DNA of 64,000 bases from Neopararhizobium haloflavum (lineage in GTDB: Bacteria > Pseudomonadota > Alphaproteobacteria > Rhizobiales > Rhizobiaceae). A program made the translations under genes and the position numbers. Of the stretch, positions 22,461-45,467 are shown piece after piece. Numbering within the stretch: the first letter of the stretch is position 1; every line of letters starts with the position of its first letter. The stretch spans positions 248,001 to 312,000 of the forward strand of contig NZ_NWUC01000003.1 in assembly GCF_002750855.1 (NCBI RefSeq), given 5' to 3'. The notes beneath the pieces are model-generated. The model was not told the origin of the DNA. It worked only from the letters and a program-made list of their open reading frames with translations, and searched no databases.

Positions 22461-23333
22461 CTACGCCGGCGTGCGCGTCATCTCACGGATCAGATCATTT
22501 GTCTCTGGTCTCGTCGTTTGGTGCCGATATCGAAGGGCCAAAACAGTTCTTGATATTTCAAGGCCATCGATGGGTTTCGACACCAGGCCCATGTCCGAAG
22601 GAATAGCGGTGGCTGGCAGGATCACCGCACCTGACCCTTGCCGAGCAAGTTCAACTAACCAATCCACGCGATTTGACCGATAGGCCGCGTAGAGTTCGTG
22701 ACCATGATCCGCGCAGGCCCCATGCAAAGCATCCCGCATTTCGCAATTTGGTCGGTCAAGCATGTCAGTTTTAGCAAGAGTCGAAAGAGAAATCGCATCT
22801 AGTTCAGACAACGGATGCGACTTTGACACCACGACCTTGTAGTCCTCTTCATAGAGGTGGTCTATACGATAGAGGTCTTCACTGACCTTCTCTGCGGTCA
22901 CCACAACGTCAAATTCACCATCTCGCAACCCGGCAAGAAGCTCGGAGGATGATGCAACGATCAATTCGATTTCGGCTTGCGGCAATCTCTTACGAGTACG
23001 CTCCATAGCTGCCGAAATCCTGTTGTGGCCAATCGTTTCGCCGACACCGACAGAGATTGGAACCCGCTCCAAGCGCATATGACGGACCGCCTCTGCCTTA
23101 GCCTGTCGCGTCTCATCGTGAACCTTCTGCAACCTTGGCTGCATGAGTTTTCCGAGGGCCGTAAGCCTGCATCCCGCACGGTCCCTGACAAACAGGTTAC
23201 CTCCAAGCTCGTCTTCAAGTTTCTTGATCGCAGTCGTCAAGGAAGGTTGGGAGACGTTGGAGGCACTGGCTGCGTGGGAGAAGTTTCGGTGCTCGCAGAC
23301 AGCGAGAAAATACCTGATCTGGTTCATTTCCAT
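22461..23333 (-). CDS. LysR-family transcriptional regulator
   Basis: Encodes 290 aa: N-terminal winged HTH (NQIRYFLAVCEHRNFSHAASASNVSQPSLTTAIKKLEDELGG is the classical LysR arrangement, given here in part as residues 3-45) and a periplasmic-binding-protein-like effector domain. ATG 23333 is chosen because GGAG stands 9 bases upstream; GTG 23351 is possible. Divergent from the tandem ABM-like gene at 23494, its likely target. Confidence 0.88.
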   Translation of the reverse strand: MEMNQIRYFLAVCEHRNFSHAASASNVSQPSLTTAIKKLEDELGGNLFVRDRAGCRLTALGKLMQPRLQKVHDETRQAKAEAVRHMRLERVPISVGVGETIGHNRISAAMERTRKRLPQAEIELIVASSSELLAGLRDGEFDVVVTAEKVSEDLYRIDHLYEEDYKVVVSKSHPLSELDAISLSTLAKTDMLDRPNCEMRDALHGACADHGHELYAAYRSNRVDWLVELARQGSGAVILPATAIPSDMGLVSKPIDGLEISRTVLALRYRHQTTRPETNDLIREMTRTPA

Positions 23334-23380
23334 CGCCGCATTCTCCGTCACATCTCATTTCAGGCCATCAAAACAAGTTC

Positions 23381-23397: not shown

Positions 23398-23493
23398 AAA
23401 GAATAGAATTTCGGAATTGGAGCCCGGCGCATCCGGCATGGGACAAGAGTGCATCGAAACCAAACACAATGCACTTCAAATCAGGGGACGACC

Positions 23494-24213
23494 ATGAAAA
23501 CGCGAATCCTCCAGACATTCGCCGCACTGGCTCTGATCACAACTTCTGCAACTGCACAGGACAACCCAATGGAAAATCACACTGCCAGCTACATCGCCAT
23601 GCCCGCCGCCGAAGGCCAGACCGGAGCCTTCGCGGAGTTTCTGGCTGGTGCCGCACCTATCGTGGGAGAAACAGAGCCGGGCACTGTACTTTGGTTTGCT
23701 CTGCAAGCCGACGATACGCTCGCAATCTTTGACATCTTCGCAGATGAAGAAGCACGCGACGCTCACTTCTCAGGAGCGGTTGCTGCGGCTTTGAACCAAA
23801 ACGCCGACACGTTGGTCGACGGAGGATGGGACGACGGTGTTGTCGCGAATATCAACAACTCCGATGTACTGTCGGCAAAAGCGCCGGTTGATCTCTACAC
23901 GGCAACGACCGCAACTTACATCAAGCTCGAAGCTGCTCCAGGTAAAGGCCCCGAATTGGCAGCCTTGCTGACCGCCGCCGGCCCCATCGTCGCAGATACC
24001 GAACCCAAGACATTGTTCTGGGCGGCGCTGCAGATTGACGAGAACAACTTCGCCATCTTCGACATTTTTGCCGACAACTCTGGCCGCGAAGCGCACTTTG
24101 CCGGACAAGTCGCCGGACTCCTGAATGAAAAGGCTTCAGAATTGGTCTCAGGCGGATGGGACGACGGTGTGGTGGCAAACGTTCACAATTTCGACATCCT
24201 CGCTACCAAGTAA
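23494..24213 (+). CDS. Exported protein with two tandem ABM-like (ferredoxin-fold) domains
   Basis: Encodes 239 aa: signal peptide (MKTRILQTFAALALITTSATA), then two copies of a domain of about 95 residues. Both copies contain the same markers: TA(S/T)YI, TEPGT/TEPKT before LWFALQ/FWAALQ, FAIFDIFAD and GGWDDGVVAN. Similar single domains occur in antibiotic-biosynthesis-monooxygenase-like (ABM) proteins, small stress or quinone-modifying enzymes. The duplication probably makes an intramolecular version of the usual dimer. ATG 23494 follows CAGGGGACG. A terminator follows at 24239. Confidence 0.7.
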   Translation: MKTRILQTFAALALITTSATAQDNPMENHTASYIAMPAAEGQTGAFAEFLAGAAPIVGETEPGTVLWFALQADDTLAIFDIFADEEARDAHFSGAVAAALNQNADTLVDGGWDDGVVANINNSDVLSAKAPVDLYTATTATYIKLEAAPGKGPELAALLTAAGPIVADTEPKTLFWAALQIDENNFAIFDIFADNSGREAHFAGQVAGLLNEKASELVSGGWDDGVVANVHNFDILATK

Positions 24214-24831: not shown

Positions 24832-24846
24832 ATGCGTCAAGCGCAT
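24832..24846. promoter_or_regulatory. LysR box ATGC-N7-GCAT before the carboxylase operon
   Basis: ATGC-GTCAAGC-GCAT has the T-N11-A form of a LysR recognition site. Its centre is 32.5 bp upstream of the centre of the palindrome at 24865 and about 105 bp before the first start codon. The same arrangement occurs before tctC. Confidence 0.6.
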
Positions 24847-24864
24847 AAGATGATGAAGTATTAT

Positions 24865-24878
24865 TATTTGACCAAATA
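24865..24878. promoter_or_regulatory. TATTTG-N2-CAAATA palindrome overlapping a -35 element
   Basis: TATTTG-AC-CAAATA is a perfect dyad that includes a TTGACC -35-like hexamer. Together with the next three bases (GAT) this 17-mer is an exact inverted copy of the one at 36800-36816. It fits the activation half of a LysR site pair. Confidence 0.65.
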
Positions 24879-24943
24879 GATATCACGACATCAGATTGGC
24901 GCCGATGGGGCTTTCGGCCCCCGCGTGATGTAGAGGAGCAGCT

Positions 24944-25165
24944 GTGGCGATTATCGAGATCAAGGCGGAAATCACGGGAAATGTCTGGACGATTCAGGTG
25001 CGGCCGGGTGACCAAATCGACGAGGACACGCCGATCCTGATCCTAGAATCGATGAAGATGGAAATTCCTATCGTAGCGACGGATGGCGGCAAGGTCGTGG
25101 ACATTCTCGTATCCGAGGGAGATACGGTCCAAGAAGGTGCGACCATCGCGCGGCTGGAGGTGTAA
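24944..25165 (+). CDS. Biotin carboxyl carrier protein (free-standing biotinyl domain)
   Basis: Encodes 73 aa, just one biotinyl domain. The biotinylation site is K38 in ESMKMEIP. The carrier moves carboxybiotin between the biotin carboxylase encoded next and a carboxyltransferase. GTG start with GAGGAG 6 bases upstream; one base separates its stop from the next start. Small detached carriers of this size occur in acyl-CoA carboxylases and decarboxylases of catabolic operons. Confidence 0.92.
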   Translation: MAIIEIKAEITGNVWTIQVRPGDQIDEDTPILILESMKMEIPIVATDGGKVVDILVSEGDTVQEGATIARLEV

Positions 25166-25166
25166 C

Positions 25167-26528
25167 GTGCGGCGCATCCTGATCGCCAATCGCGGGGAGA
25201 TTTCGCGTCGCATTACTCGCTCCGCGCACGAACTGGGCATCGAGACGGTGGCGGTCTATTCTGAAGCGGATCGGGAGGCGGCTCACGTTGTCGACGCCGA
25301 CCATGCCGTTGATGTCGGCCCCGCACCCGCGCGCCAAAGCTATCTCGATACCGACCGCATACTTGAGGCCGCCAGCCGGGCAAGCGCCGATGCAGTGCAT
25401 CCCGGATACGGCTTTCTGTCGGAGAACGCCGACTTCGCCGAGGCGGTGCTGCGACAAGGCTTGTGCTGGATCGGCCCCGCCCCCCACACGTTGCGCGCCA
25501 TGGGTGACAAGCAGCGAGCACGGGAAATCGCCGTCGCGGCCAACGTTCCTGTGGTTCCGGGCAGCGGTCGAATCGCCGAAGGCGAGCTGTCGCGGGCCGA
25601 GGCGGAAGCCGAGGCCGTCGGCTTTCCGCTTCTCGTGAAGGCCTCCGCCGGTGGCGGCGGCATTGGCATGCGCCGCGTTGACTCGATCGAAAAGCTGGTC
25701 GAATCCGTGAAGGCGACGCAGTCGATGGCTGCCAAATCCTTCGGTGACGGCACTGTCTTTCTCGAGCGCTATGTTCCGCGCGCCAGGCATGTCGAGATCC
25801 AGGTCTTCGGCTTTGGCGACGGGACCGCCGTTCATCTTTTCGAACGCGACTGCTCCCTGCAGCGGCGATTTCAAAAGATCATCGAGGAAGCGCCGGCCCC
25901 CGGCCTGTCGCGGGCCCGGCGTGCAGCGATGGCCGAAGCCGCGATCTCGCTCTGCCGCGCCACGCGCTATGCCGGAGCCGGGACGGTCGAATTCATCCTC
26001 GACGTCGAGAGTGAGGATTTCTTCTTCCTCGAGATGAACACCCGCATCCAGGTCGAGCATCCGGTCACGGAGATGATCACAGGCAGGGACCTCGTGGCGA
26101 TGCAGATTGACTTCGCGCGCGGGCGGCTCGCCGCCATGGAACAGCATGGGATATCCGCCGAGGGCCACGCTCTTGAATGTCGCCTCTACGCCGAGAACCC
26201 GGCAAAGATGTTCATGCCGTCGCCGGGGCGGCTGGAGCGCTTCGCGTTGCCCGCCGACTCCGCGACGGTGCGGGTGGATACCGGCTATCGCGCTGGTGAC
26301 ATGGTCACGCCATACTACGATCCGCTGCTGGCCAAGATCGTCGTCAAAGGCGCGGATCGCGAGCTGGCGTGTGCGACAGCTATCGAGGCGCTCGGTAAGG
26401 TGGACGTCGAGGGGGTCGCCACAAACCGCGACTTCCTGATCGCCTGCCTCCGCGACGACGCCTTTAGGAAAGGAGCAGTGCACACGGCCTTCATCGATAT
26501 GAACCACCAGCAGTTGCTGGCTGCGTAG
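25167..26528 (+). CDS. Biotin carboxylase subunit (AccC-like)
   Basis: Encodes 453 aa. ATP-grasp enzyme that carboxylates biotin with bicarbonate. Seen: N-terminal RRILIANRGEISRRI, HPGYGFLSENADFA, glycine-rich ATP loop KASAGGGGIGMR, ERDCSLQRRFQKIIEEAPAP and the EMNTRIQVEHPVTEM catalytic segment. Length is that of a separate subunit; no biotinyl domain is fused. GTG start 25167. Probably dedicated to the two carboxyltransferases of this island rather than fatty-acid synthesis. Confidence 0.93.
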   Translation: MRRILIANRGEISRRITRSAHELGIETVAVYSEADREAAHVVDADHAVDVGPAPARQSYLDTDRILEAASRASADAVHPGYGFLSENADFAEAVLRQGLCWIGPAPHTLRAMGDKQRAREIAVAANVPVVPGSGRIAEGELSRAEAEAEAVGFPLLVKASAGGGGIGMRRVDSIEKLVESVKATQSMAAKSFGDGTVFLERYVPRARHVEIQVFGFGDGTAVHLFERDCSLQRRFQKIIEEAPAPGLSRARRAAMAEAAISLCRATRYAGAGTVEFILDVESEDFFFLEMNTRIQVEHPVTEMITGRDLVAMQIDFARGRLAAMEQHGISAEGHALECRLYAENPAKMFMPSPGRLERFALPADSATVRVDTGYRAGDMVTPYYDPLLAKIVVKGADRELACATAIEALGKVDVEGVATNRDFLIACLRDDAFRKGAVHTAFIDMNHQQLLAA

Positions 26529-26542
26529 AAAAATAAGGCAAC

Positions 26543-26926
26543 ATGTCCCGCAGATCGGACAGGCTTCTCAACAATGCTATCGTCGCTCACCCAACCCGTC
26601 TGCGGACCTTCGAGCACATTGTGATCGTCCTGACGGGTACGATGCTGTTTGCCCTGAATGCACGGGACCAGGTCCCGATGTGGCCAGCGCCGACGACGAT
26701 GGAGACATTCGCCGTACTCATCATCGCCATCGTCTGCAGCGCACACCTCGCGGTCGTCACAGACGGGCTCCACCTGCTTCAGGGCGCCATCGACGTGCCG
26801 GTCTTTCCCGCAGGTGGTGTGCTCGTGAATACCGCAGGGCCGACAGCGGGCTATCTGTGGGGCTTTCTCGCCGTGACCGCGGTCGCCGGCACGCTGGCCG
26901 AACGCCGCATGACGCGCGCATTTTGA
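26543..26926 (+). CDS. BioY-like biotin transporter S component, shortened
   Basis: Encodes 127 aa. The middle matches BioY of ECF biotin transporters: VPMWPAPTTMETFAVLIIA, a central helix, GAIDVPVFPAGG and GPTAGYLWGFL. BioY proteins normally have about 180-200 residues and six membrane segments; here the frame stops after GTLAERRMTRAF, before the last helices. Position after the biotin carboxylase makes a biotin-supply role sensible. It may be a degraded copy or a short functional form. Confidence 0.65.
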   Translation: MSRRSDRLLNNAIVAHPTRLRTFEHIVIVLTGTMLFALNARDQVPMWPAPTTMETFAVLIIAIVCSAHLAVVTDGLHLLQGAIDVPVFPAGGVLVNTAGPTAGYLWGFLAVTAVAGTLAERRMTRAF

Positions 26927-26942
26927 CATCGGACATTCCCGC

Positions 26943-27983
26943 ATGCAGCTCGATCACCTATCGTCGGCGGGGAACGCATATCGCTCCGCTTCCAGGCTAA
27001 CACCGGGGTTCCTCATCTGTGCGACGGTGGCAGTTGCCGCTCAGTTCCTAGCCGACCATCACGGCGCGCCCGTTATGCTGCTCGCCCTGATGCTCGGTAT
27101 CGCCCTGCATTTCCTTTCGGATGTCGAACGTGCCTCGGCCGGTATCGAGTACACGGCGAGGCGGGTGCTGCGCATCGGTGTAGCGCTACTGGGGGCGCGC
27201 ATCACCCCAGAACTGATGGCCGGTATCGATGTCGCAGACATCGCCTTGGTGACGGCGGCGGTCGCGGCCGTTATCCTTTTCGCGCTGGCAGCGGCGTGGG
27301 CGCTGAATCGCGGATGGAGACTCGCAATCTTAACCGGCGGAGCCGTCGCGATATGTGGCGCTTCTGCAGCAATGGCCATTGCCGCGGTCCTGCCGAGTAA
27401 CGATCGTTCCGAGCGCAACCTTACATTCACCGTCATCGGCGTGACCGTGCTCTCGACCGTGGCGATGATCGTCTACCCGCTGATGTGTGCGGCATTGGGG
27501 CTCGATGACCGCACAGCTGGGGTCTTTATCGGCGGCACCATCCACGACGTGGCCCAGGTCGTCGGCGCCGGCTTCTCCGTTTCGGAAGAGACCGGCGAGA
27601 CTGCCACACTCGTTAAGATGTTGCGGGTTATCATGCTCGCGCCGACCGTGATCTGCCTGTCGCTCGTGTTTAGGGGCGGTGCGCCATCGGGTCGCCGCAG
27701 CGCAGGCCGGGCGCCGCTCGTCCCTCGTTTCGTGTTGGTCTTTATCTCCCTAGCGGCGCTCAATGCGAGCGGCCTGCTGCCGCGGCCGGTGGCGGAAGTT
27801 CTAGTCGCGCTGTCGGGATGGGCGCTGGTGCTCGGGATCGCGGCAATCGGCATGAAGACGTCGCTGAGTTCCCTATCCTCGGTCGGCACCACGGCGATCG
27901 TGCTCCTCGTGGCCGAAACCGTGTTCATGGCGGCAATTGTTCTTGGAGGCCTACTTCTGATCGGCCAAGGAAGTGCGCCTTAG
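26943..27983 (+). CDS. YeiH/UPF0324-family membrane protein (putative sulfate/sulfonate exporter family)
   Basis: Encodes 346 aa with about ten membrane segments. Family markers: MLLALMLGIALHF, VLRIGVALLGARI, ILTGGAVAICGASAAMAI and the central GGTIHDVAQVVGAGF. Members have been linked to export of sulfite or organosulfonates (TauZ-like). In this island it may export a by-product or an acid; that is inference. 16 bases after the BioY-like gene. Confidence 0.8.
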   Translation: MQLDHLSSAGNAYRSASRLTPGFLICATVAVAAQFLADHHGAPVMLLALMLGIALHFLSDVERASAGIEYTARRVLRIGVALLGARITPELMAGIDVADIALVTAAVAAVILFALAAAWALNRGWRLAILTGGAVAICGASAAMAIAAVLPSNDRSERNLTFTVIGVTVLSTVAMIVYPLMCAALGLDDRTAGVFIGGTIHDVAQVVGAGFSVSEETGETATLVKMLRVIMLAPTVICLSLVFRGGAPSGRRSAGRAPLVPRFVLVFISLAALNASGLLPRPVAEVLVALSGWALVLGIAAIGMKTSLSSLSSVGTTAIVLLVAETVFMAAIVLGGLLLIGQGSAP

Positions 27984-28020
27984 CTATAAGACTAATGCAT
28001 AGAATGATGATGCAATTATA

Positions 28021-28050
28021 TTCGACTGCATACATCCGAAAACCTATCCT
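28021..28050 (+). promoter_or_regulatory. Candidate internal promoter of the carboxyltransferase genes
   Basis: TTCGAC (28021-28026), an 18-base spacer and TATCCT (28045-28050) form a sigma-70-like pair 42 bases before the ATG at 28092. The preceding bases (GCATAGAATGATGATGCAATTATA) resemble the region upstream of the biotin carrier operator, and CTAT-N11-ATAG lies at 27984-28002. Confidence 0.35.
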
Positions 28051-28091
28051 TGTCGCTAGTCGGGATGAACCATCTTGAGCGGGGAGGAACC

Positions 28092-29627
28092 ATGAAATTC
28101 GTCGAGAAGATCGAGGAGCATGCCGAGCGAAAGCAGCGTGCCCTGTCGATGGGCGGGGAGGAGAAGCTCGCCAAGCGTCGCGAGAAGGGCATGCTCAATG
28201 CGCGCGAACGCGTCCACTACCTTCTTGATCCAGGTTCATTCGTGGAAAGCGGCCTGTTCAGCACCTCGATGCAGCCGAAGGATCGCGACCGCACTCCAGC
28301 CGACGGAAAGATCGTCGGTTTCGGCCGAATCGAATCGCGCCGGGTGGGCATCGTCTCCAATGACTTCACGGTGAAGGGCGCCTCCAGCAGCCCCGTCAAT
28401 TCTAACAAGATGGAGCACGTCAAGAAGGTCGGAGCCCGCAGTGGATTCCCCGTCGTCTTCCTCGGCGAATCCACCGGTGCGCGTATGCCCGACATCATGG
28501 GCGCTAAGGGCATCATCGGCGTCAACAACGACCCGCAGCAATATATGCGTTTGCGCACCAACCCGTGGGCAGCCGCGGTGCTAGGCCTCTCCTTCGGCTC
28601 GGCCACGTGGTATTCGGCAATGGCCGACTTCACGGTGATGAAGAAGGGCGCCTGCATGGCGGTATCCAGTCCACGTCTCGTGGCCCTCGCCACGCGCCAG
28701 GAGGTCGATTTCGAGGAACTGGGCGGATGGCGTCTGCACAGCGAGGTGACCGGTCTCGTCGACATGGTGGTCGACACGGACGAACAGGCACTCGATGCGA
28801 TCCGGAACTATCTTGGCTACCTACCCTCGCATGCCAACGAAGCACCGCCGCGGCACGAGGTGCCAAAAGGCTCTGACGAAGCCTGCGAAGGCATTCTCGA
28901 CCTGATCCCCGAAGCCAAGGGGCAGGTCTATGACGTGCGCAAGGTCATCGACCGCATCGTCGATCAAGGCTCGACCTTCGAACTAAAACCCAGATTCGGA
29001 AAGACGCTGGTCACCGCTCTCGCCCGCATCGACGGGCGCAGCGTCGGCATCATCGCCAACAATCCCTTCTTCAAGGGCGGGGCGATCGACGCGGATGCTT
29101 GCGACAAGGCAATTAGCCTACTGGTCCAGTGCGATTCCTACAATATCCCTGTCGTGTTCCTGGTCGACCAGCCGGGCTTCCTCATCGGCATCGAGGCCGA
29201 GCGGCGGCGCATGCCGGGCAAGGTTATGAACTGGCTCAACGCTTTGGCGCAGTGCACCGTCCCCAAGTTCTCCGTGATTATGCGCAAGAGCTACGGCCTT
29301 GCCGTGCGCAACATGGGGGGAAGCAACAACGCCAACGAAGTTGCTGCATGGTGGAGTGCAGAGGTCAGTTTCATGGACCCCCGTTCGGGCGTTGCCGTGG
29401 TGCACGGGATCTCGCCGGAGGACGACCCGGAGGCGCATGCGGCCCATCTAGAGGAGATGAGTCGCGACACCTCTGCCTACGATCTCGCCTCAATTAATGG
29501 CGCGCGCGCAGTCATCGATCCGAGAGAAACTCGCCAATATCTCAAGAACATGCTGGACGTCTATGAGGACAGCTATTCGGGAGGTGTCGGCCAGCATCAT
29601 CTGCGCAACTGGCCCACGGGCTTCTGA
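28092..29627 (+). CDS. Acyl-CoA carboxylase carboxyltransferase subunit (first copy)
   Basis: Encodes 511 aa of the propionyl-CoA carboxylase beta family, which moves the carboxyl group from carboxybiotin to an acyl-CoA. Both crotonase-fold halves are visible: an N-terminal half with LGESTGARMPDIMGAKG, and a C-terminal half with NNPFFKGGAIDADACDKA and LVDQPGFLIGIEAE. GGGGAGGAACC precedes ATG 28092. Only distantly similar to the second carboxyltransferase at 30854, so they are not a recent duplication. Confidence 0.9.
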   Translation: MKFVEKIEEHAERKQRALSMGGEEKLAKRREKGMLNARERVHYLLDPGSFVESGLFSTSMQPKDRDRTPADGKIVGFGRIESRRVGIVSNDFTVKGASSSPVNSNKMEHVKKVGARSGFPVVFLGESTGARMPDIMGAKGIIGVNNDPQQYMRLRTNPWAAAVLGLSFGSATWYSAMADFTVMKKGACMAVSSPRLVALATRQEVDFEELGGWRLHSEVTGLVDMVVDTDEQALDAIRNYLGYLPSHANEAPPRHEVPKGSDEACEGILDLIPEAKGQVYDVRKVIDRIVDQGSTFELKPRFGKTLVTALARIDGRSVGIIANNPFFKGGAIDADACDKAISLLVQCDSYNIPVVFLVDQPGFLIGIEAERRRMPGKVMNWLNALAQCTVPKFSVIMRKSYGLAVRNMGGSNNANEVAAWWSAEVSFMDPRSGVAVVHGISPEDDPEAHAAHLEEMSRDTSAYDLASINGARAVIDPRETRQYLKNMLDVYEDSYSGGVGQHHLRNWPTGF

Positions 29628-29652
29628 GCGCCGCCGAGAGGAGACCACGAAA

Positions 29653-30837
29653 ATGGACGCACGAACCCACGCGCCGGCGAGTGGCGAACACGACACACGG
29701 CCCTATCCCCTGGCAGGGGTCAAGGTGCTTGATTTCTCGCATGTGCTGTCCGGTCCGCACTGCACCATGCTGCTTGCCGATCTCGGCGCCGAAGTGGTGA
29801 AGGTCGAGCGACCCGGCACCGGCGACGAAAACCGCCGCATGCGCAGCTATGCGGGGCGCCAGCCCCACGACGAAGACTATTTCTATCCTATGAACCGCAA
29901 CAAGAAGAGCATTGAGGTCAATCTTAAAGACCCGGCCGACCGCGAGCGCGTCATCACGTTGATGAAGACCAGCGATGTCGTCGTCGAAAACTTCACCCCC
30001 GGCGCGATGAAGAAGCTCGGCCTCGACTACGAGAGCGCCAAGGTGGTGAACCCGCGGCTGGTCTATTGTTCAATATCGGGCTACGGGCAGACGGGACCAT
30101 ATCGCAACCGGAAGGCCTATGACTCCATCATCCAGGCATTCGCCGGCGTCATGTCAATCACCGGCGAAGCTGACGGACCGCCGCTGCGCAGCGGGCTCAT
30201 GTTCGCCGATTTGACCGGCGCCATGTATGCGCTCTCAGCAATTCTCGTTTCGCTCTACGCGCGCGAGCGCACCGGCCTCGGCAACTATATCGACCTCTCG
30301 ATGTCGGACGCGCTTTTGAGCCTCTACTCGACAAACGCGGCCGAATACATGGCTACCGGCAAGTCGCCCGGGCGCGCGGGATCGGAAAATCCAGGCCGCA
30401 GCCCGACCGGCAGCTATCTATGCGCCGACGACCGATACGTCCAGGTGATGGGTGGCAGCGACAGGCTGTGGCCCGGCTTCTGCGCCGCTGTCGGCCGACC
30501 GGATCTGGCAGAGGACGTGCGCTTTGCCAGCAACGAGGCGCGCATCGCCAACCGCAAGCAGTTGCGTGCGATCCTGACGCCCGTGTTCCGTAGCAAGCCA
30601 TCCGCCGAATGGGTTGAACAGATGAGCGTCCTCGGCCTGCCGATCGCACCTATCAACACACTGGCCGACGCGATGAACGATCCGCATTTCCAGCATCGCG
30701 AGATGGACCTGCGGCTTGAACATCCCCGATCGGGCGAGATACGCACCATCAACAATCCGTTCCGCTTCAGCACCTATGCAACGTGGCAGCACAAATCGCC
30801 GCCCCTTCTGGGCCAGCACAACGACGAATATCGATGA
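29653..30837 (+). CDS. CaiB/BaiF-family (class III) CoA-transferase
   Basis: Encodes 394 aa. Class III CoA-transferases move CoA between two carboxylic acids through an aspartyl-CoA thioester. Seen: LAGVKVLDFSHVLSGPHCTM with the dinucleotide-like site, ADLGAEVVKVERP, NRNKKSIEVNLKDP, SISGYGQTGPY and the catalytic aspartate D186 in GLMFADLTGAM. Placed between two carboxyltransferases, it probably makes the acyl-CoA that they carboxylate, or recycles CoA from the product. Confidence 0.92.
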   Translation: MDARTHAPASGEHDTRPYPLAGVKVLDFSHVLSGPHCTMLLADLGAEVVKVERPGTGDENRRMRSYAGRQPHDEDYFYPMNRNKKSIEVNLKDPADRERVITLMKTSDVVVENFTPGAMKKLGLDYESAKVVNPRLVYCSISGYGQTGPYRNRKAYDSIIQAFAGVMSITGEADGPPLRSGLMFADLTGAMYALSAILVSLYARERTGLGNYIDLSMSDALLSLYSTNAAEYMATGKSPGRAGSENPGRSPTGSYLCADDRYVQVMGGSDRLWPGFCAAVGRPDLAEDVRFASNEARIANRKQLRAILTPVFRSKPSAEWVEQMSVLGLPIAPINTLADAMNDPHFQHREMDLRLEHPRSGEIRTINNPFRFSTYATWQHKSPPLLGQHNDEYR

Positions 30838-30853
30838 CGCACGGGGTTTGACG

Positions 30854-32476
30854 ATGACGAAGGACAGCAGACCTGCAGCCGCCGGGCCGGTCGCGGCGAC
30901 GGACGAGGCGCTTTGCAGCGACTGGTCCGCCGAAATGAAGGAACTCGCGTTCCGCCGCGACAAGGCCATGGCCATGGGCGGCGAGGAGGCGATCGCCTTT
31001 CAGCATGATCGCGGCAAGAACACCATTCGCGAGCGCCTCGATGACCTGCTCGACGCAGGCACCTTCAGGGAACTGGGCACGCTTGCCGGCAAGGGAAGCT
31101 ACGGCGACGACGGGCGCCTCGTCGACTTCACTCCCTCCAACGCCGTCATCGGAACCGGACGTGTGGACCGTCGCAAGGTCGTCGTGTCGGGCGACGATTT
31201 CACCATCCGCGCGGGCTCTTCCGAAGCCACCGTCTCCGACAAATGGGTCTATGCTGAACGTCTGGCTCACGAGTACCGGATGCCGCTAGTGCGGCTCGTC
31301 GATACCGCCGGAGGCAGCATCAAGATCCTCGAACAGCAGCAGGCGACCAAGATACCCGGCTATGCGCGCTGGCCCTCCATATCGTTGCTAGGGCGGGTCC
31401 CGGTGGTCGGTATGGCACTGGGCGCCTGTGCCGGGCTGGGAGCGATCAAGGTCGGACTTTCTCACTTCTCGGTCATGCTGCGCGATACCGCCTTCGTGTT
31501 CGCCGGCGGACCCCCGGTGGTCAAACGAGGTCTCAACCAAGACGTGACCAAGGAGGAACTCGGCGGGGCCAGGGTCCACACCCGCAGCGGCGTGGTCAAC
31601 AACATGGCTAGGGATGAACAGGACGCCTTCGAGCAGGTCCGGCGCTTCCTGTCCTACATGCCGCGCAACGTCTGGGAAGTCCCCCCGCGCGTCGTGCCGG
31701 AGGATAGGGCCGACCGCGCCGAGGCGGCGCTCGACAGGCTCGTGCCCCGCGACCGGCGAAAGATCTACGCCGCACGCGACATCGTCCGGCTGGTCATGGA
31801 TACCGGCAGTGTCTTCGAGGTGGGCAAGCGCTTCGGCGGGTCCGTCGTCACCTGCTATGCTCGGCTCGACGGCCATTCCGTGGGCGTCATCTGCAACGAT
31901 CCGGCCGTGATGGGCGGGGCGTTGACGCATCAGGCGGCGCAGAAAATGGCCCGCTTCGTCGACACCTGCGACACGTTCCACCTGCCGATTGTCAACTTCG
32001 TTGACCAGCCCGGGGTCATGACCGGCCCCACTGCGGAGGCGGCCGGTACGCTCACCTCTGCCATCGGCCTTCTCGGCGCGATCGAGCAAGCATCAGTGCC
32101 CTGGTGCTCGATCATCGTGCGCCGCGCCTTCGGCGTCGGTGGTGGCGCGCACGGTCCCAAACACGGCCCCGACGGGCGCTCCCTCAACCATCGCTTTGCA
32201 TGGCCCTCCGCGCGCTGGGGCTCGATCCCGATCGAAGGCGGCGTCGCGGCCGCCTACAAGAAGGATATCGCAGCAGATGCTGATCCCGATACCCGGCGCA
32301 TGGAACTGGAGAGTTACTATCACGAGCTCTCCTCGCCGTTCCGGACGGCGGAGAAGTTCGGCATCGTTGACGTAATCCGGCCCGCGGAGACGCGTGCCAT
32401 CCTGTGCGACTGGATTGAGGACGCCTACGCTCTGACGACAACCCAACTCGGCCCCAAGCGGCGCACCATGCGTTGA
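30854..32476 (+). CDS. Acyl-CoA carboxylase carboxyltransferase subunit (second copy)
   Basis: Encodes 540 aa. N-terminal half with RLVDTAGGSIKILEQQQATK, VVGMALGACAGLGA and VFAGGPPVVKRGL; C-terminal half with CNDPAVMGGALTHQAAQKM, VDQPGVMTGPTAEAAG and RRAFGVGGGAHGP. The N-terminal extension of about 25 residues is longer than in the first copy. The pair may act on two substrates or form a mixed complex; the sequence does not decide. It ends at a 10-bp hairpin. Confidence 0.9.
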   Translation: MTKDSRPAAAGPVAATDEALCSDWSAEMKELAFRRDKAMAMGGEEAIAFQHDRGKNTIRERLDDLLDAGTFRELGTLAGKGSYGDDGRLVDFTPSNAVIGTGRVDRRKVVVSGDDFTIRAGSSEATVSDKWVYAERLAHEYRMPLVRLVDTAGGSIKILEQQQATKIPGYARWPSISLLGRVPVVGMALGACAGLGAIKVGLSHFSVMLRDTAFVFAGGPPVVKRGLNQDVTKEELGGARVHTRSGVVNNMARDEQDAFEQVRRFLSYMPRNVWEVPPRVVPEDRADRAEAALDRLVPRDRRKIYAARDIVRLVMDTGSVFEVGKRFGGSVVTCYARLDGHSVGVICNDPAVMGGALTHQAAQKMARFVDTCDTFHLPIVNFVDQPGVMTGPTAEAAGTLTSAIGLLGAIEQASVPWCSIIVRRAFGVGGGAHGPKHGPDGRSLNHRFAWPSARWGSIPIEGGVAAAYKKDIAADADPDTRRMELESYYHELSSPFRTAEKFGIVDVIRPAETRAILCDWIEDAYALTTTQLGPKRRTMR

Positions 32477-32482
32477 TGGCGC

Positions 32483-32512
32483 GCGGCCCGACACTACTAA
32501 TCGTCGGGCCGC
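32483..32512. terminator. Perfect 10-bp hairpin between convergent genes
   Basis: GCGGCCCGAC and GTCGGGCCGC pair perfectly around a 10-base loop that contains the MFS stop codon. No T tract follows on either strand, so termination would be inefficient or factor-assisted, but position between two convergent operons suits a bidirectional terminator. Confidence 0.5.
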
Positions 32513-33675
32513 AAAGGAGCGGCACTCTCGGCCTCGGCCGGCACCTTTAGCCTCGCCGCGCCGGCGACGAGCACCGCTCCTATTAAGAAGAAGATTCCAG
32601 AAACGCCGGCGAAGATCGACGCCCCGCCAATGGCGAGCGGGGTGACGAACTGGGTCAAACGGTTGCACGCAAGCCGGATGCCCAGGACCTCGCCGACCTT
32701 ATGGGGCGGCGACAAGTTGATCGTCCGCGTGATCGATAGCGGTTGACCCAACCCCAGGCCGAACCCCATGGCGATCGAGATCGCCGCGAGCGCAAGGGGG
32801 TCCCGGGTGAGCGGCAACAATAGGTAGCATACACCTGCGCCGATCACCGAGGTGATGATCACGAGGTTCTTGCCGAACCTAATGACCAGCGACACCATGA
32901 AGAAACGCATAATAACGCCGCCCACGTTGTGCATAGCCACTACTATGCCGATCCACGAAGCGGTCATCCCGGCCTGAACGGCGTAGAGCGGGAAATAGGC
33001 GACATACATGTCCTTGCCAATCAGGATAAGCGAGCTGACGAGGAAGGCGCGCGCCATGTACTTGTTGTAGCCGAAGACCCGCAACGGATTGTGCCCGGAT
33101 TTATCCGGTTCGCCATTCTGGGGCAAGGGTGTGGGGCGCATCCCCGCCATAAGGGGTAGGACGAGGGAGGCGGCGACGAGCGCCACGCCACCCAGGATTG
33201 CGAAGGTCGTCGCATAGCCAAGATGGTCGCCTCCAGGTCCTCCCAGAAGCGGTCCGGCCAGTGAGCCGAGCGCCACGCCCATGCTAAAAACGGCGACCGA
33301 ACGCTCGCGCGAAAGGCCGGGGGCGGCGCGGCCGGAGTGCTTCTGCGCGGCCAATATGAAAAGCGTGAAGCCGGTGCCTGCCACGAGCTGGGATAGATAG
33401 AGGCCGACGCGGCCGCCCAGCGCGAAAGGCAGGGCGAGCCCCAGCGCGGTGACGATCGCGCCTAGCAGCAGAGGCCGGACGACGCCGTGCCGGTCCATCC
33501 AGCTCCCCGCCACCGCAGCCGCCAGGAGCGGGATCATGGCGAACACCGCGACGAGCACACCGATCTCAGCCACGCCGATGCCGAGCTCGATTGCCAGCAG
33601 CGGCACCAGGGGGCGCGTACCCATCACGCCGGCGACCAGAAAGAAGGACGCCGTTGGCACAATGGGGAGCGACAT
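32497..33675 (-). CDS. MFS transporter
   Basis: Encodes 392 aa with twelve hydrophobic segments and the loop 2-3 motif GSWMDRHGVVRPLLLG typical of the major facilitator superfamily. The central loop is about 25 residues. Last gene of the tct transcript, 28 bases after tctA. ATG 33675 (MSLPIVPTASFF) gives a normal MFS length; no clear ribosome-binding site is seen, so coupling with tctA is likely. Substrate unknown, possibly efflux or uptake of the same acid. Confidence 0.8.
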   Translation of the reverse strand: MSLPIVPTASFFLVAGVMGTRPLVPLLAIELGIGVAEIGVLVAVFAMIPLLAAAVAGSWMDRHGVVRPLLLGAIVTALGLALPFALGGRVGLYLSQLVAGTGFTLFILAAQKHSGRAAPGLSRERSVAVFSMGVALGSLAGPLLGGPGGDHLGYATTFAILGGVALVAASLVLPLMAGMRPTPLPQNGEPDKSGHNPLRVFGYNKYMARAFLVSSLILIGKDMYVAYFPLYAVQAGMTASWIGIVVAMHNVGGVIMRFFMVSLVIRFGKNLVIITSVIGAGVCYLLLPLTRDPLALAAISIAMGFGLGLGQPLSITRTINLSPPHKVGEVLGIRLACNRLTQFVTPLAIGGASIFAGVSGIFFLIGAVLVAGAARLKVPAEAESAAPLRPDD

Positions 33676-33703
33676 TGCGAATGATGATTTCAACTGGCGG
33701 CTC

Positions 33704-35209
33704 TCAACTGCCTGCCGACGGCCGGGCAGTCTCTTGCGAGGATCTTCGAAGCCTACTCGCAATACCGAGCACAACGACGAGTGTGATGACCGCAAGGATC
33801 GCGATCGAATAGCCGCGCGTGATGAACATTGTGTAACTGCCGTCCGAGATCAACAGGGCCCGCCGCAGGCTTTCTTCGAGTATCGGGCTCAGGACGAAGG
33901 CCAGAATGAAGGCCGGCGCCGAGAAGTCGAGCTTGTTGAGAAGGAAGAAGGCGACGCCGAAGATCAACGCGACCCACAGATCGACATGGACATAGCTCGA
34001 GGCGTAGACGCCCACCATCGCCAGGATCATGACGATCGGCACCAGGATGTAATTCGGGACCACAAGCACGCGGGCGAAGAAGGGTGTCAGCAGCTTACCG
34101 ATCACGAACATGGCCAAGGTGGCGACTAGGAAACCATAGAAAATTCCGTTTACGAGCGCGGGGTTCGCAGTGAAGACGGTCGGTCCCGGCTGGATGCCGT
34201 GGATGATGAACGCACTCATAATGATGGCCGTCGAGGCCGATCCCGGTATGCCCAGCGTGATGACGGGAAGCATCGCGCCACCGACAGTTGCGTTATTGGC
34301 CGCTTCCGGGGCCGCGATGCCCTCGGGATTGCCGGTTCCGAAAGTTTCGGGCTTACGCGAGGTGTTGCGGGCCAAGCTGTAGGCGAACCAGGCCGAAGCC
34401 CCGGCCCCCATGCCGGGCAGGAAGCCGATGACTGAGCCGATGCCGGAGCCGATCCACATGGCGCGCAGAACGCGGCGCAGCTCCGCAATGTTAAGCCGTG
34501 TGCTGAGGCCACGCCTGTCTGTCACATATTTACGGTGCAGGTCCGTGCTGATCATGGAGAACATCTCGGCAAAAGCGAATATGCCAACCAAAACAGCCAC
34601 CAGATGGAGACCGTCGAACAGCAGGGGCGAGCCAAACGTATAACGGTGTGCGCTCGAAATCACGTCGATTCCGATCGTAGCTGTCATGAGGCCGAGAACC
34701 ACCGAAATCGAACTGCGCAGCACATCAACGGAGCTGAGGCCTGCCACGGCGACGAGGCCAAGAATCCCGATCAGGAAGAATTCTGGATCGCCGAGTTGAA
34801 GGGCAACGACCGATAGGGGGACCGACATGAATAGCAGCACTAGGCCGCCGAACAGGCCACCCACGGTCGATGCCGCGAGCGAATAGGCGAGGGCCTTGCC
34901 AGGTGAACTACGTTTGGCCAGGGCGTTGCCGTCGATGAGCGTCGCCGCAGCCGCCGGCGTCCCCGGGATTCCCAAGATGATCGATGAGATCGACCCGCCA
35001 TACTCAGCGCCTTGGTAAGCGGCGACAAGCATCAGGATCGCGGCGAGCGGTTCCATGCTGTATGTGAAGGGAAGCAGAAGAACTATCGCCACCGTCGCGC
35101 CAAGGCCAGGCAGCGCGCCGATGAGCAGGCCCACGAAGGTGCCGATCGCGATGCCGCTCAGATTCGAGAGCGAGAAGAGCCCGAGAAAGTCAAATTCGAA
35201 CAGCGTCAC
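33704..35209 (-). CDS. tctA: TctA-family large membrane subunit of a tripartite tricarboxylate transporter
   Basis: Encodes 501 aa with about twelve membrane segments. Both family repeats are visible: GLLIGALPGLGATVAIVLLLPFTY and GSVIGFLPGMGAGASAWFAYSLAR, along with ILGIPGTPAAAATLIDG and VITLGIPGSASTAIIMSAFI. TTT transporters carry carboxylic acids using an ion gradient and a periplasmic binding protein. Forms one transcript with tctC and tctB. Confidence 0.95.
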   Translation of the reverse strand: MTLFEFDFLGLFSLSNLSGIAIGTFVGLLIGALPGLGATVAIVLLLPFTYSMEPLAAILMLVAAYQGAEYGGSISSIILGIPGTPAAAATLIDGNALAKRSSPGKALAYSLAASTVGGLFGGLVLLFMSVPLSVVALQLGDPEFFLIGILGLVAVAGLSSVDVLRSSISVVLGLMTATIGIDVISSAHRYTFGSPLLFDGLHLVAVLVGIFAFAEMFSMISTDLHRKYVTDRRGLSTRLNIAELRRVLRAMWIGSGIGSVIGFLPGMGAGASAWFAYSLARNTSRKPETFGTGNPEGIAAPEAANNATVGGAMLPVITLGIPGSASTAIIMSAFIIHGIQPGPTVFTANPALVNGIFYGFLVATLAMFVIGKLLTPFFARVLVVPNYILVPIVMILAMVGVYASSYVHVDLWVALIFGVAFFLLNKLDFSAPAFILAFVLSPILEESLRRALLISDGSYTMFITRGYSIAILAVITLVVVLGIASRLRRSSQETARPSAGS

Positions 35210-35227
35210 GATCGTGTCCTTCGATAG

Positions 35228-35677
35228 TCAGAACCGAACCTGCATCACCAAGTCGAAGAGAAGGTAGATGCCGACGGTCAGAGCTGCGGTCGCGCCCACG
35301 TTGACAGCATGTCTCTTCCAACCGCCGGCCCGTGAGAACAGCGTCATCAGGATCAGACAAAGGGCAAATACGACAGGGTAGAAGATGGCACTCAAATATT
35401 GCCACGCGGCGATGAACAGGCCTGCGAGCACGACGCTCAGGGCGACGAGGCCAGCATTTGGAATTGTGACGACCCTCTCGTCGCTCGACCTCAGCGTCTT
35501 CAGGAAGGAGGCGGCACAAAGCACCAAGAGAAGCACGCCGAGGACCGTGGGAAAATAGGCGGGTCCGATGGCGTCCCGGGCCCTGGCATCAGTGAGGCCA
35601 ATGGCATGCCACAAATAGGCGATGCCGACGACGAACAGGATGCCTAGCGCGATATAGCTAGCCCGCTTGTAGGTCAT
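35228..35677 (-). CDS. tctB: TctB-family small membrane subunit of a tripartite tricarboxylate transporter
   Basis: Encodes 149 aa with four membrane segments; the GPAYFPTVLGVLLLVLCAASFL element is a TctB hallmark. ATG 35677 with GGAG upstream; a longer frame to 35734 lacks a good site. Small subunits are thought to support assembly with TctA. Lies 18 bases before tctA. Confidence 0.9.
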   Translation of the reverse strand: MTYKRASYIALGILFVVGIAYLWHAIGLTDARARDAIGPAYFPTVLGVLLLVLCAASFLKTLRSSDERVVTIPNAGLVALSVVLAGLFIAAWQYLSAIFYPVVFALCLILMTLFSRAGGWKRHAVNVGATAALTVGIYLLFDLVMQVRF

Positions 35678-35758
35678 CGGCGACACGCTCCTGTTTCGGC
35701 ACGCGAAAGACTTTCGCCGTCCCCGCGGCGCCACGCGACGGGGATGGCGAGAATGGCC

Positions 35759-36712
35759 TCAGTCGATGAGACCGGCACGGCGCAAAAGCTGACCGTTGTG
35801 CTCGAAGTCCTCCTTGAGGGTCTCGGCGAATTCCTCGGGTCCCTCATAGGCGATCTCGAAGGATTGGTTGGCAAGCGCCTCGACCACTTCCGGGTCCTCG
35901 AGCGCCTGGGTGAAGGCATCGTGCAGCACCTCCACGATTTCGGCGTCGACCCCCTTGGGCGCCACGATGCCGATGAAGGCGTCCTTGTGCGCCTCGTAGC
36001 CCGCGTCCCTAAGAGTCGGTATGTCGGGATGCATGCTGCTGCGCGTGCTGGAGAAATTGATGAGCGGACGGACCAAGCTGGGGTCGGCATTGCCTTGGAA
36101 CGTCGCCACGCCCCCTACATTGCCGCCGAGCACCGCCGCCATGGCGCGGCCCCCGCTATCATAGGGAATGGCCCTAGTCTCGATCTCGGCCGCTTCGTTA
36201 AGCACCGCCATGGCGAGATCGGATATGCTGCCATTGCCAGGAGTGGCATAAGTGAAAGCCCCCGGGTTCTCCTTCACGTGAGTTAGCCATTCGTCGAAAT
36301 CGGCCCATGGCGCATCGGCCTGGACCAGAAGCACCTGTGGGATGTCTACTAGGCGTACGATCGGCTCAAAGCTATCGTAGGAGTAGCTCGCGCCCTGGAA
36401 ATGTGGCTGGATGGTCACCGGACTGTTGGACGTGAGGCCGATCGTGTAGCCGTCGGCGGGCGCATTCTGGATCGCAGACATGCCCACCGTCGTGGAGCCG
36501 CCCGGGCGGTTGACCACCACGACATCGACCTGATTGGGCAGGTATTTCCCCAGCGCCGAGGCGAAGAGACGTGCCGAGGTATCGGTGCTGCCGCCCGGCG
36601 CGAAGGGTGTGATCATCTCAATGGTACCGCTGGGATAGTCCTGGGCGACAGTCGTGGAGACGCCCATACCCAGCACCAGCGGTACAATTAGCGAAAACAG
36701 GATCTTTCTCAT
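35759..36712 (-). CDS. tctC: TctC-family periplasmic substrate-binding protein
   Basis: Encodes 317 aa with a signal peptide cut near residue 23 (ends TTVAQ). Family loops: ITPFAPGGSTDTSARLFASAL, VNRPGGSTTVGM, TPGNGSISDLAMAVL, and APKGVDAEIVEVLHDAF. TctC/BugT proteins bind carboxylates by two water-bridged loops; ligands include citrate, terephthalate and amino acids, so the ligand here stays open. GGAGGAG precedes ATG 36712. First gene of the minus-strand operon. Confidence 0.94.
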   Translation of the reverse strand: MRKILFSLIVPLVLGMGVSTTVAQDYPSGTIEMITPFAPGGSTDTSARLFASALGKYLPNQVDVVVVNRPGGSTTVGMSAIQNAPADGYTIGLTSNSPVTIQPHFQGASYSYDSFEPIVRLVDIPQVLLVQADAPWADFDEWLTHVKENPGAFTYATPGNGSISDLAMAVLNEAAEIETRAIPYDSGGRAMAAVLGGNVGGVATFQGNADPSLVRPLINFSSTRSSMHPDIPTLRDAGYEAHKDAFIGIVAPKGVDAEIVEVLHDAFTQALEDPEVVEALANQSFEIAYEGPEEFAETLKEDFEHNGQLLRRAGLID

Positions 36713-36802
36713 TGAACTCCTCCAATTCCGGATTATTGCCGAGCCCGGCTCTCCTCCGCGCCCCCCCGTCGCCGGAGAATGGCAAGGATTGATGTACCGA
36801 TC

Positions 36803-36816
36803 TATTTGGTCAAATA
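36803..36816. promoter_or_regulatory. TATTTG-N2-CAAATA palindrome before tctC
   Basis: TATTTG-GT-CAAATA, 91 bases before the tctC start. On the minus strand it contains TTGACC, a -35-like hexamer. Bases 36800-36816 are an exact inverted copy of 24865-24881. Confidence 0.65.
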
Positions 36817-36834
36817 TTAAAATGACATCTAAAT

Positions 36835-36849
36835 ATGCGTTTGTTGCAT
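36835..36849. promoter_or_regulatory. LysR box ATGC-N7-GCAT between tctC and the LysR gene
   Basis: ATGC-GTTTGTT-GCAT, extended by one pair to TATGC...GCATA, is a T-N11-A LysR site. Its centre lies 32.5 bp from the centre of the 36803 palindrome, exactly as before the biotin carrier gene, and 66 bp before the LysR start, which allows autoregulation. Confidence 0.65.
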
Positions 36850-36907: not shown

Positions 36908-37822
36908 ATGAGACTGAATCTGAAACAACTGGACGCTTTCCGCGCTGTGATGGTCACTGGTTCCACGTCCGATGCCGCCCTTATGCTGCACCTGTCCCAG
37001 CCGGCGGTCAGCCGATCGCTTCAGAACCTCGAGGAAGCGATCGACTATCAGCTCTTCATCCGCAAGAGCGGGCGGCTCTATCCGACTACTGAGGCCGAAA
37101 GGTTGTTCGCCGAACTTGACCAACTCTATTCCAGCTTTGACCACATTGCGCATGTTCTCAAGACAATCAGGCCCAGCGGCGATGGGCATTTGCGGATCGT
37201 TGCATCCACGCCCATGGCGCAACGTTTTCTGCCGGCAGTCTTTGCTCGTTTCCAAGCAAGTCGCCCGAACGCCAGCCTATCCCTGCGTGTGATTGTCAAG
37301 CGGGAAGCGGCCAAATGGCTGGAATCGCAGCAATTCGATCTCGCGCTCCTGACCATGCCGATCGAATATCCAGCCGCGTGCACCCAGCATGTCGCGACAG
37401 TGGATGCTGTTTGCATCCTGCCTCCGGCTCATCCCCTCACGGCCCGCAAGTTCGTCGACGCGACCGATCTTGCCGACGAGCATTTCATCTCGATCGTCCC
37501 GGGGACGACGCTTCGGGCCCGAATCGATCAGACGTTCACCAGCCTCGGCATCGACCGCAGTAAGTTGCTGCTGGAAACGCAGTCGGGAGCCTCGATCTGC
37601 CAGATGGTCGCCGCCGGACTAGGGGTGTCCGTGATCGACTCGCTGAACGCCGAAGCATTCCAGCATCTGGGTGTTGTGATACGCCCCTTTCGACCGCGGT
37701 TACATTTCGACTACGGACTTTTCGTGCCTATCCACCGCCAGCTTTCGAGCGAGGCGCGCGCGTTTCGTGATCTGCTCAGAGAGATGACCGAGCCGCTCGG
37801 AGGCCCGCGATCCTTCGGCTGA
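36908..37822 (+). CDS. LysR-family regulator, probable regulator of the acid-catabolic island
   Basis: Encodes 304 aa: HTH in the first 60 residues (LKQLDAFRAVMVTGSTSDAA, then LSQPAVSRSLQNLEEAI) and a substrate-binding domain with PSGDGHLRIVAS and VAAGLGVSVIDS. This branch resembles regulators of opine and carboxylate catabolism. Divergent from tctC with the LysR box between them; the same box occurs before the carboxylase operon 12 kb away. Confidence 0.88.
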   Translation: MRLNLKQLDAFRAVMVTGSTSDAALMLHLSQPAVSRSLQNLEEAIDYQLFIRKSGRLYPTTEAERLFAELDQLYSSFDHIAHVLKTIRPSGDGHLRIVASTPMAQRFLPAVFARFQASRPNASLSLRVIVKREAAKWLESQQFDLALLTMPIEYPAACTQHVATVDAVCILPPAHPLTARKFVDATDLADEHFISIVPGTTLRARIDQTFTSLGIDRSKLLLETQSGASICQMVAAGLGVSVIDSLNAEAFQHLGVVIRPFRPRLHFDYGLFVPIHRQLSSEARAFRDLLREMTEPLGGPRSFG

Positions 37823-44279: not shown

Positions 44280-44288
44280 GGTTGGGGC

Positions 44289-44723
44289 TCAGCGTTGCGG
44301 AAACAGGAAGGCAAAGGCGATGCGCCGCCGCCACGCTTCGCTCAAGGGCTGCTCGATCACGCCGAGCCGACCATAGGCGTGGATAAAGGTGACGGTGCTG
44401 GTGATGAGCCCGACATGTTTGGCGATGGCGCGTGGCTTCATCCGAAAAAGGACCAAGGCGCCGGGGCTGGCCGCCGCGGGCTCTATCTCGATCATTAGCC
44501 GGCGCGCGCCTTCGGCCAGTACCTCGCATGGGCCCGTCTCGCCCCAGTCGCGGCTATAGGGCGGCATCGGAAACGGCTCCGGACCCACCACTTCCCGCCA
44601 GATCCCCCGGGCGAGACCGAGGCAGTCGCAGCCGACACCTTTGAGGCTCGCCTGATCGTGGTAGGGCGTGCCCAGCCATGAGCGCGCAACCGCGATGATG
44701 CAGTCAGAATTGGCGGTTCTCAC
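44289..44723 (-). CDS. GTA gp14-like NlpC/P60 cell-wall peptidase
   Basis: Encodes about 144 aa. Catalytic Cys34 in GCDCLGLARG and His103 in AKHVGLI; preceded by SWLGTPYHDQASLKG. This phage NlpC type sits in the tail tip and cuts peptide cross-bridges during DNA entry. The GTG at 44723 gives the normal family length. In GTA clusters gp13 and gp14 are adjacent; here a foreign gene separates them and the native start region may have been altered. Confidence 0.88.
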   Translation of the reverse strand: MRTANSDCIIAVARSWLGTPYHDQASLKGVGCDCLGLARGIWREVVGPEPFPMPPYSRDWGETGPCEVLAEGARRLMIEIEPAAASPGALVLFRMKPRAIAKHVGLITSTVTFIHAYGRLGVIEQPLSEAWRRRIAFAFLFPQR

Positions 44724-44775
44724 AGCAGTTCGGGGTGCGCCAAAATCTTGTAATGATGTTCGATTGTGGAACTCC

Positions 44776-45354: not shown

Positions 45355-45467
45355 ATCGATCCTCCAGGCACAGCCGGATGCAGGTTAAAAGCCGACACTT
45401 GGACAAGTAAACAGCTGAGCGGAAGCAACTGACCAAACCCATACAAAGCGCTCGCAATCAACAATCG

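Follow-up and report, generated by a model that had tools for sequence, protein, structure and literature searches.

Published LysR-type operators, as the available excerpts of two accounts describe them, combine a recognition site near –65 with a pair of activation sites; the inducer makes the regulator shift, which frees the –35 (PMC11602165, PMC4730206). Here we describe candidate LysR operators in a 64,000-nucleotide stretch of the Neopararhizobium haloflavum genome (contig NZ_NWUC01000003.1, positions 248,001 to 312,000; "the window" is this whole stretch). They precede a tctCBA transporter operon, a biotin-carrier operon and a carboxyltransferase/CoA-transferase operon. We propose, with a probability of roughly 0.86, that the LysR encoded at 36908-37822 binds the three operators and activates these operons through an inducer-driven shift.

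Three described systems come closest. The excerpted text of one source places the inverted repeats of OxyR at oxyS at –66, –44 and –35, that is, 22 and 31 bp past the first, and those of the Agrobacterium OccR at occQ at –64 and –33 (31 bp apart), with a weaker third repeat between them (PMC5002191). Our operators share this three-repeat layout as excerpted, the second repeat lying 21 bp and the third 32.5 bp past the first, but their half-sites are ATGC/ATAA-N7-GCAT, one regulator would serve three separate promoters, and the third repeat is well formed at only 2 of the 3. BenM and CatM at benA and catB of Acinetobacter are described, in the portion available, with an ATAC-N7-GTAT recognition site, a second site by a –35-like TTGAAC and an effector-driven shift between sites (PMC6628147). 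Here, too, a recognition box is followed by a second site beside a –35-like hexamer, a likeness of layout that covers these two sites; the sequences themselves differ. Finally, comparative genomics of LysR regulons for aromatic pathways in Betaproteobacteria, again as excerpted, found divergent lysR genes and an odd palindrome fitting T-N11-A before the targets (PMC6449761). The same two traits recur in our cluster, whereas the pathway here comprises a biotin-dependent carboxylase, a family III CoA-transferase and a TctCBA-type transporter. A limited literature search found no publication combining four of the following: tripartite tricarboxylate transporter, LysR, acyl-CoA carboxylase, CoA transferase and BioY.

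Two matching copies, unique in the genome

Read on the strand of the target operon, the copies before the biotin-carrier operon and before tctC both consist of ATGC-N7-GCAT, 18 nt and TATTTGACCAAATAGAT. The original prediction had picked out these boxes and dyads by eye, and the sequence bears out their coordinates and order, the 18-nt gap that sets the centres 32.5 bp apart, the 17 identical bases and the claimed overlap of dyad and –35, TTGACC lying inside the dyad. The lysR gene said to adjoin one copy is indeed there, divergent from tctC.

The recognition box alone is unremarkable, with 2 occurrences in the window against 2.22 expected from shuffles. At up to 2 mismatches the window contains the dyad twice, each time in its exact form, where 0.32 are expected; at least 2 looser matches arise in 5 of 100 shuffles. 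Across the 4.17-Mb genome the exact dyad is again found at 2 places, both of them these operators, and allowing one mismatch adds 2 further places, no excess over a backward-read control (3 per strand). The paired pattern occurs at exactly 2 places genome-wide, before the biotin-carrier gene and tctC, with 0 in the backward-read control, and its strict form is absent from all 394 other genomes of the family sample. This genome-wide uniqueness, the control counts and the shuffle tests given below lead us to reject a chance origin of the pair. A check of the whole genome showed no spread of the pair over unrelated promoters: the strict pattern has 2 places and the model 3. A wide regulon is likewise rejected for this genome, with exactly 3 model matches at E ≤ 10: the same operator stands before each member operon and nowhere else at that threshold.

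A third operator and counterparts in relatives

A weight matrix of 25 columns, built on just the two window copies with the gap set to 18, ranks a place at 27986 (+) third in the window, with a score of 19.2 against 14.9 for the next. This third, degenerate copy (27986-28035), overlooked in the original prediction, reads ATAAGACTAATGCAT, 18 nt and TATTCGACTGCATACAT, and lies between a yeiH-like gene (end 27983) and the ATG of carboxyltransferase 1 (28092).

All searches for relatives were run on genome samples. One close relative of the LysR was found, 66% identical and encoded by Rhodobacteraceae bacterium WD3A24 (L037; the one close match among 23 genome-contig loci). The cluster is present on its contig (L063) as well, with genes for biotin carrier, biotin carboxylase, BioY, 3-hydroxyacyl-CoA dehydrogenase, enoyl-CoA hydratase, carboxyltransferase 1, CoA-transferase, carboxyltransferase 2, thiolase and a member of the nitronate-monooxygenase family, then MFS, TctA, TctB and TctC genes on the opposite strand, and lysR. 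All three window operators have counterparts there at orthologous places, that of the third lying at L063:6029, before carboxyltransferase 1 at 6255. The tctC–lysR gap holds ATGCGCTAAGCGCAT, 18 nt and TATTTGACCATATAG, and AATCCTTGC is identical before tctC in both genomes. The pair is therefore kept in the one relative found that retains both operons, nearly letter for letter before tctC and in degenerate form before the biotin carrier, with equal spacing; a stricter pattern picks up the tctC copy only. Recent duplication of one promoter is an unlikely origin of the two strict copies, because their identity is confined to the elements, without spacer or flank (43 of 69 bases equal in an ungapped alignment, with 29/32 in the elements, 9/18 in the spacer and 5/19 beyond), and because all three promoters have WD3A24 counterparts.

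Two further genomes, G491 and G578 (LysR 44–46%), came from an order search at 1e-70, in which the LysR was found in 3 of 397 genomes, its own included. In G491 the operator lies between lysR and a divergent homologue (57%) of carboxyltransferase 1, after which comes a biotin carrier; in G578 it lies between lysR and a divergent TauD-family gene. A divergent lysR thus adjoins an operator in the window, WD3A24, G491 and G578. At 1e-65 the LysR was found in its own genome only, among 395 family genomes and among 289 class genomes sampled, and in 1 of 8 genomes of G491's family, G491 itself. The 460 plasmid records that matched it all did so at <60% identity. Since three other genomes of the window's genus (G024, G125, G194) have no LysR match at 1e-40, the cluster may reflect a recent gain in the window genome or patchy loss within the genus.

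The two-copy matrix has its best match at the expected promoter and strand in four regions of three genomes (WD3A24 tctC, WD3A24 biotin carrier, G491 and G578), and 0, 1, 0 and 0 of 300 shuffles, respectively, reach that score. With 3000 shuffles, the region-wide counts were 4 for the window third operator, 5 for its WD3A24 counterpart, 1 for the WD3A24 biotin carrier and 0 each for G491, G578 and WD3A24 tctC; the corresponding counts within the local 100 bp were 1, 11, 13, 4, 1 and 0. The sites outside the window were chosen by visual inspection and with the two-copy model, a choice for which the shuffle tests allow, and the G578 region had slightly different ends in the 300- and 3000-shuffle tests. 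A gap of 18 was the best among 6–30 in 8 of 8 regions, two of them being the training copies.

Prediction was also run in both directions, the reverse one being weaker over whole genomes. A matrix from the 5 non-window sites scores the three window sites at 32.8, 32.8 and 31.6 (next place 12.3), and one from the 3 window sites scores the three WD3A24 sites at 29.4, 25.0 and 18.7 (next place on that contig 10.9). Over the whole window genome, the 5-site model returns exactly three operators (E 9.2e-5, 1.4e-4 and 2.3e-4); in 26 other genomes, controls of our own choosing, it gave 4 matches, the best at E 0.136, with 150 out of a larger number of first-look candidates scored in four of them. A model of all 8 sites (R1) picks out 3, 3, 1 and 1 places across the four genomes, with nothing else at E ≤ 10; being circular for the 8 sites themselves, it is informative only in the absence of further matches.

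Anatomy of the sites and the role of the dyad

The 8 core sites align without gaps. AT is invariant at columns 1–2 and 14–15, the recognition box, and at columns 22–23, and it recurs at 35–36 in 7 of 8. The original prediction had overlooked the resulting second AT-N11-AT box between recognition box and dyad, which lies exactly 21 bp on and is full in 7 of 8 sites, as in 1 of 20000 spacer shuffles, a figure that overstates independence among related sites. With the dyad centre 32.5 bp on, three-repeat spacing is present in this clade. T-N11-A occurs in 8/8 core sites, which were partly selected for it, with 2–7 of 7 complementary pairs, and the dyad has 6/6 pairs in two sites and 3–5/6 in the other six. 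The second box touches the –35-like hexamer at columns 37–42 (TTGACC in 4/8; TCGACT, TCGATC or TGGAAT otherwise). The recognition box is centred 29 bp ahead of this hexamer's first base, which would place it at about –64 and the second box at about –43, positions reckoned from the predicted –35; from the –35 and box positions, transcript starts are predicted near 24904, 28058 and 36777. The best –10 among spacers of 15–19 has a spacer of 17 in 6 of 8 sites (AATCCT twice, TATCCT, TATTGC, TATGAA, AAAAAT) and of 18 in the other 2.

With the 8-site matrix we tested this layout at 29 LysR homologue loci of the family (29.8–37.5% identity, among 44 non-own match places), lysR starts being extrapolated from alignments. 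On the divergent strand, 14 of the 29 have a site whose score no more than 16 of 500 shuffles reach, located between 3 nt into lysR and 37 nt ahead of its estimated start; only 1 of the 29 has one on the opposite strand. These 14 sites were chosen by score, so that their AT-N11-AT is partly selection. The best gap among 10–26 is 18 in 12 of them (23 in L019, 26 in L021), and TATTTG matches at a mean of 5.0/6, TTGAC is exact in 8/14, and the right half CAAATA matches at a mean of 2.0/6.

The older, kept grammar thus seems to be a recognition box, 18 nt and TATTTG(AC), a box at fixed distance from the –35, with the full dyad and second box appearing as features of this clade. The equal spacing noted in the original prediction accordingly seems to be the ordinary spacing of this LysR subfamily. 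Because the wider relatives keep only the left half plus the –35 (TATTTGAC), the dyad itself is probably not the activation site. We propose the second box, 21 bp past the recognition box, as a better candidate, and suggest by analogy that the dyad sits where the third inverted repeat overlaps the –35 in OccR/OxyR-type operators. The predicted recognition/activation layout is supported in its fit to published LysR operators and is probably wrong in taking the dyad as the activation site, given that its right half is not kept in wider relatives.

Conservation reaches furthest on the –35 side, and the upstream DNA is AT-rich (local G+C 0.39–0.49); both could also reflect a plain –35/–10 promoter for sigma-70 shared by these genes, with no regulator. 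We consider this extremely improbable, since the box plus –35 at fixed distance beats locally shuffled DNA of equal composition (0–13 of 3000), the layout points toward the side divergent from lysR genes, and it occurs in the genome at three places only.

Several observations weigh against a LysR regulon of three activated promoters. WD3A24 is the one relative found with all three promoters. No clear site is present in 15 of the 29 wider homologues, the two-copy matrix passes the same threshold in only 7 of the 29, and several of the 14 sites are near-copies (L015/L024, L017/L021 and L033/L035 look related). The second box at offset 21 is found in 0 of the 14 wider sites, so its role is clade-specific or its 7/8 partly reflects shared ancestry of the core sites. 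Trained on the 3 window sites, the model finds the WD3A24 tctC site (E 9.5e-5) and G491 (0.022), recovers the other WD3A24 sites weakly (0.061 and 1.5) and misses the G578 site. Two of 23 control genomes also yield 9 matches with it (E 0.26–4.3, best 0.259; 150 out of a larger number of first-look candidates scored in one genome), some of which beat the weakest WD3A24 site, and there is no match in G108, the genome in which the best wider site (L019) adjoins the lysR homologue. Finally, the –10 hexamers are weak (2–4/6 matches).

A proposed LysR switch and its genes

Coupling of transport and catabolism in one regulon, as originally predicted, is supported and enlarged to three operators, the third before carboxyltransferase 1. 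The regulator would bind upstream of three sets of genes: tctC, which diverges from the regulator's own gene; biotin carrier and biotin carboxylase; and carboxyltransferase 1, CoA-transferase and carboxyltransferase 2. Each promoter would be compact, with a recognition box at about –64 and a second box at about –43 against the –35, and with a perfect dyad across the –35 at two of them. Without inducer, a LysR tetramer would occupy the recognition box and the dyad, covering the –35; with inducer, it would move to the recognition box and the second box, freeing the –35 and helping RNA polymerase. The inducer would be the transported acid, its CoA form or a derivative.

The dyad covering the –35 at two promoters would also suit a repressor, this LysR keeping the three operons off and the inducer merely releasing them. 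In the LysR family, weak –10 hexamers together with a recognition box near –64 suit activator-dependent promoters (PMC11602165, PMC4730206); both are predicted here, which makes simple repression unlikely. Still less probable is binding by another regulator, either a second LysR (22464-23351, minus strand), whose gene is near the 24832 copy and roughly 1.5 kb upstream of the biotin-carrier promoter, or a distinct factor recognizing the TATTTG-N2-CAAATA dyad, a perfect palindrome at two promoters. The second LysR is only 19% identical to LysR 36908-37822, and no operator precedes its own gene, where the best score is –3.6; the dyad departs from a perfect palindrome in 6 of 8 core sites; the operator adjoins the gene of the 36908 homologue in WD3A24, G491 and G578; and no other regulator was noticed on reading the open reading frame translations of the WD3A24 contig, 5 proteins of which were profiled. 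Activation by LysR 36908-37822 is therefore the reading we retain. A further, doubtful extension is that the regulon, at least in WD3A24, couples acid uptake, the biotin-dependent carboxylase pathway and the biotin transporter gene bioY under one catabolic inducer, with graded control in the window genome: tight at the uptake and biotin-carrier promoters, where a perfect dyad covers the –35, and leaky at the carboxyltransferase promoter, where it is degenerate.

Table 1. Operator elements and genes of the cluster, in window coordinates
Feature	Position	Strand	Basis or remarks
Recognition box ATGCGTCAAGCGCAT (AT-N11-AT, T-N11-A), before biotin-carrier operon	24832..24846	+	Sequence, whole-genome pattern search, model scan
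Second AT-N11-AT box ATGAAGTATTATTAT, 21 bp past recognition box; proposed activation box	24853..24867	+	Alignment of 8 core sites
Dyad TATTTGACCAAATA, biotin-carrier promoter; proposed third inverted repeat overlapping –35	24865..24878	+	Sequence
–35-like hexamer TTGACC (5/6)	24868..24873	+	Weak –10 CAGATT, spacer 18, 3/6
Biotin carboxyl carrier protein, 73 aa, first gene of operon	24944..25165	+	
Biotin carboxylase	25167..26528	+	
Third operator, recognition box ATAAGACTAATGCAT	27986..28000	+	2 nt past end of yeiH-like gene
Third operator, second AT-N11-AT box ATGATGCAATTATAT	28007..28021	+	
Third operator, degenerate dyad TATTCGACTGCATA	28019..28032	+	–35-like TCGACT 28022-28027; –10-like TATCCT 28045-28050, spacer 17
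Carboxyltransferase 1 (mmdA type)	28092..29627	+	Then CoA-transferase family III (to 30837), carboxyltransferase 2 (to 32476)
tctC, solute-binding protein	35759..36712	–	Then tctB, tctA (to 33704), MFS gene (to 32497); Pfam TctC, TctA, TctB, MFS_1
Dyad TATTTGACCAAATA, tctC promoter	36803..36816	–	–35-like TTGACC 36813-36808; –10-like AATCCT 36790-36785, spacer 17
Second AT-N11-AT box ATGTCATTTTAATAT, tctC promoter	36814..36828	–	Alignment of 8 core sites
Recognition box ATGCAACAAACGCAT, before tctC	36835..36849	–	Sequence, whole-genome pattern search, model scan
LysR-type regulator, 304 aa; candidate activator at each of the three promoters	36908..37822	+	N-terminal LysR helix-turn-helix (PF00126) and LysR substrate-binding domain (PF03466), both above cut-off

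The gene content of the cluster (Table 1) has several further features. The biotin transporter BioY (26543-26926) is shortened to 127 aa and matches positions 1–74 of a 140-position profile; WD3A24 has a full-length BioY of 193 aa at the equivalent place. The YeiH-family membrane protein gene (26943-27983) occupies the place of the WD3A24 3-hydroxyacyl-CoA dehydrogenase and enoyl-CoA hydratase genes, for which it seems to have been exchanged in the window operon. Two distinct proteins with carboxyl-transferase domains (28092-29627 and 30851-32476), about 30% alike, accompany one biotin carrier and one biotin carboxylase, and with these shared subunits they could form two carboxylases or one transcarboxylase. 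Ahead of the cluster, the second LysR gene stands divergent to a gene (23449-24213) with a weak ABM-domain match below cut-off; past the cluster, in 40323-46352, two of the genes profiled are of gene-transfer-agent/phage-tail type (a GTA TIM-barrel protein with an Rcc01698-like end and a baseplate hub).

Control of an uptake system and the matching breakdown pathway by one LysR switch at three promoters would be an ordinary kind of circuit, and the proposal is well supported. The analysis develops a motif seen by eye into a regulon defined by three promoters, for which a regulator and a class of inducer are proposed; this helps in identifying the substrate of an otherwise uncharacterised carboxylase/CoA-transferase pathway. 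The fixed layout of AT-N11-AT, 18 nt and TATTTGAC, present next to 14 of the 29 related LysR genes that were examined from the window's family, should likewise be useful for predicting the targets of these regulators.

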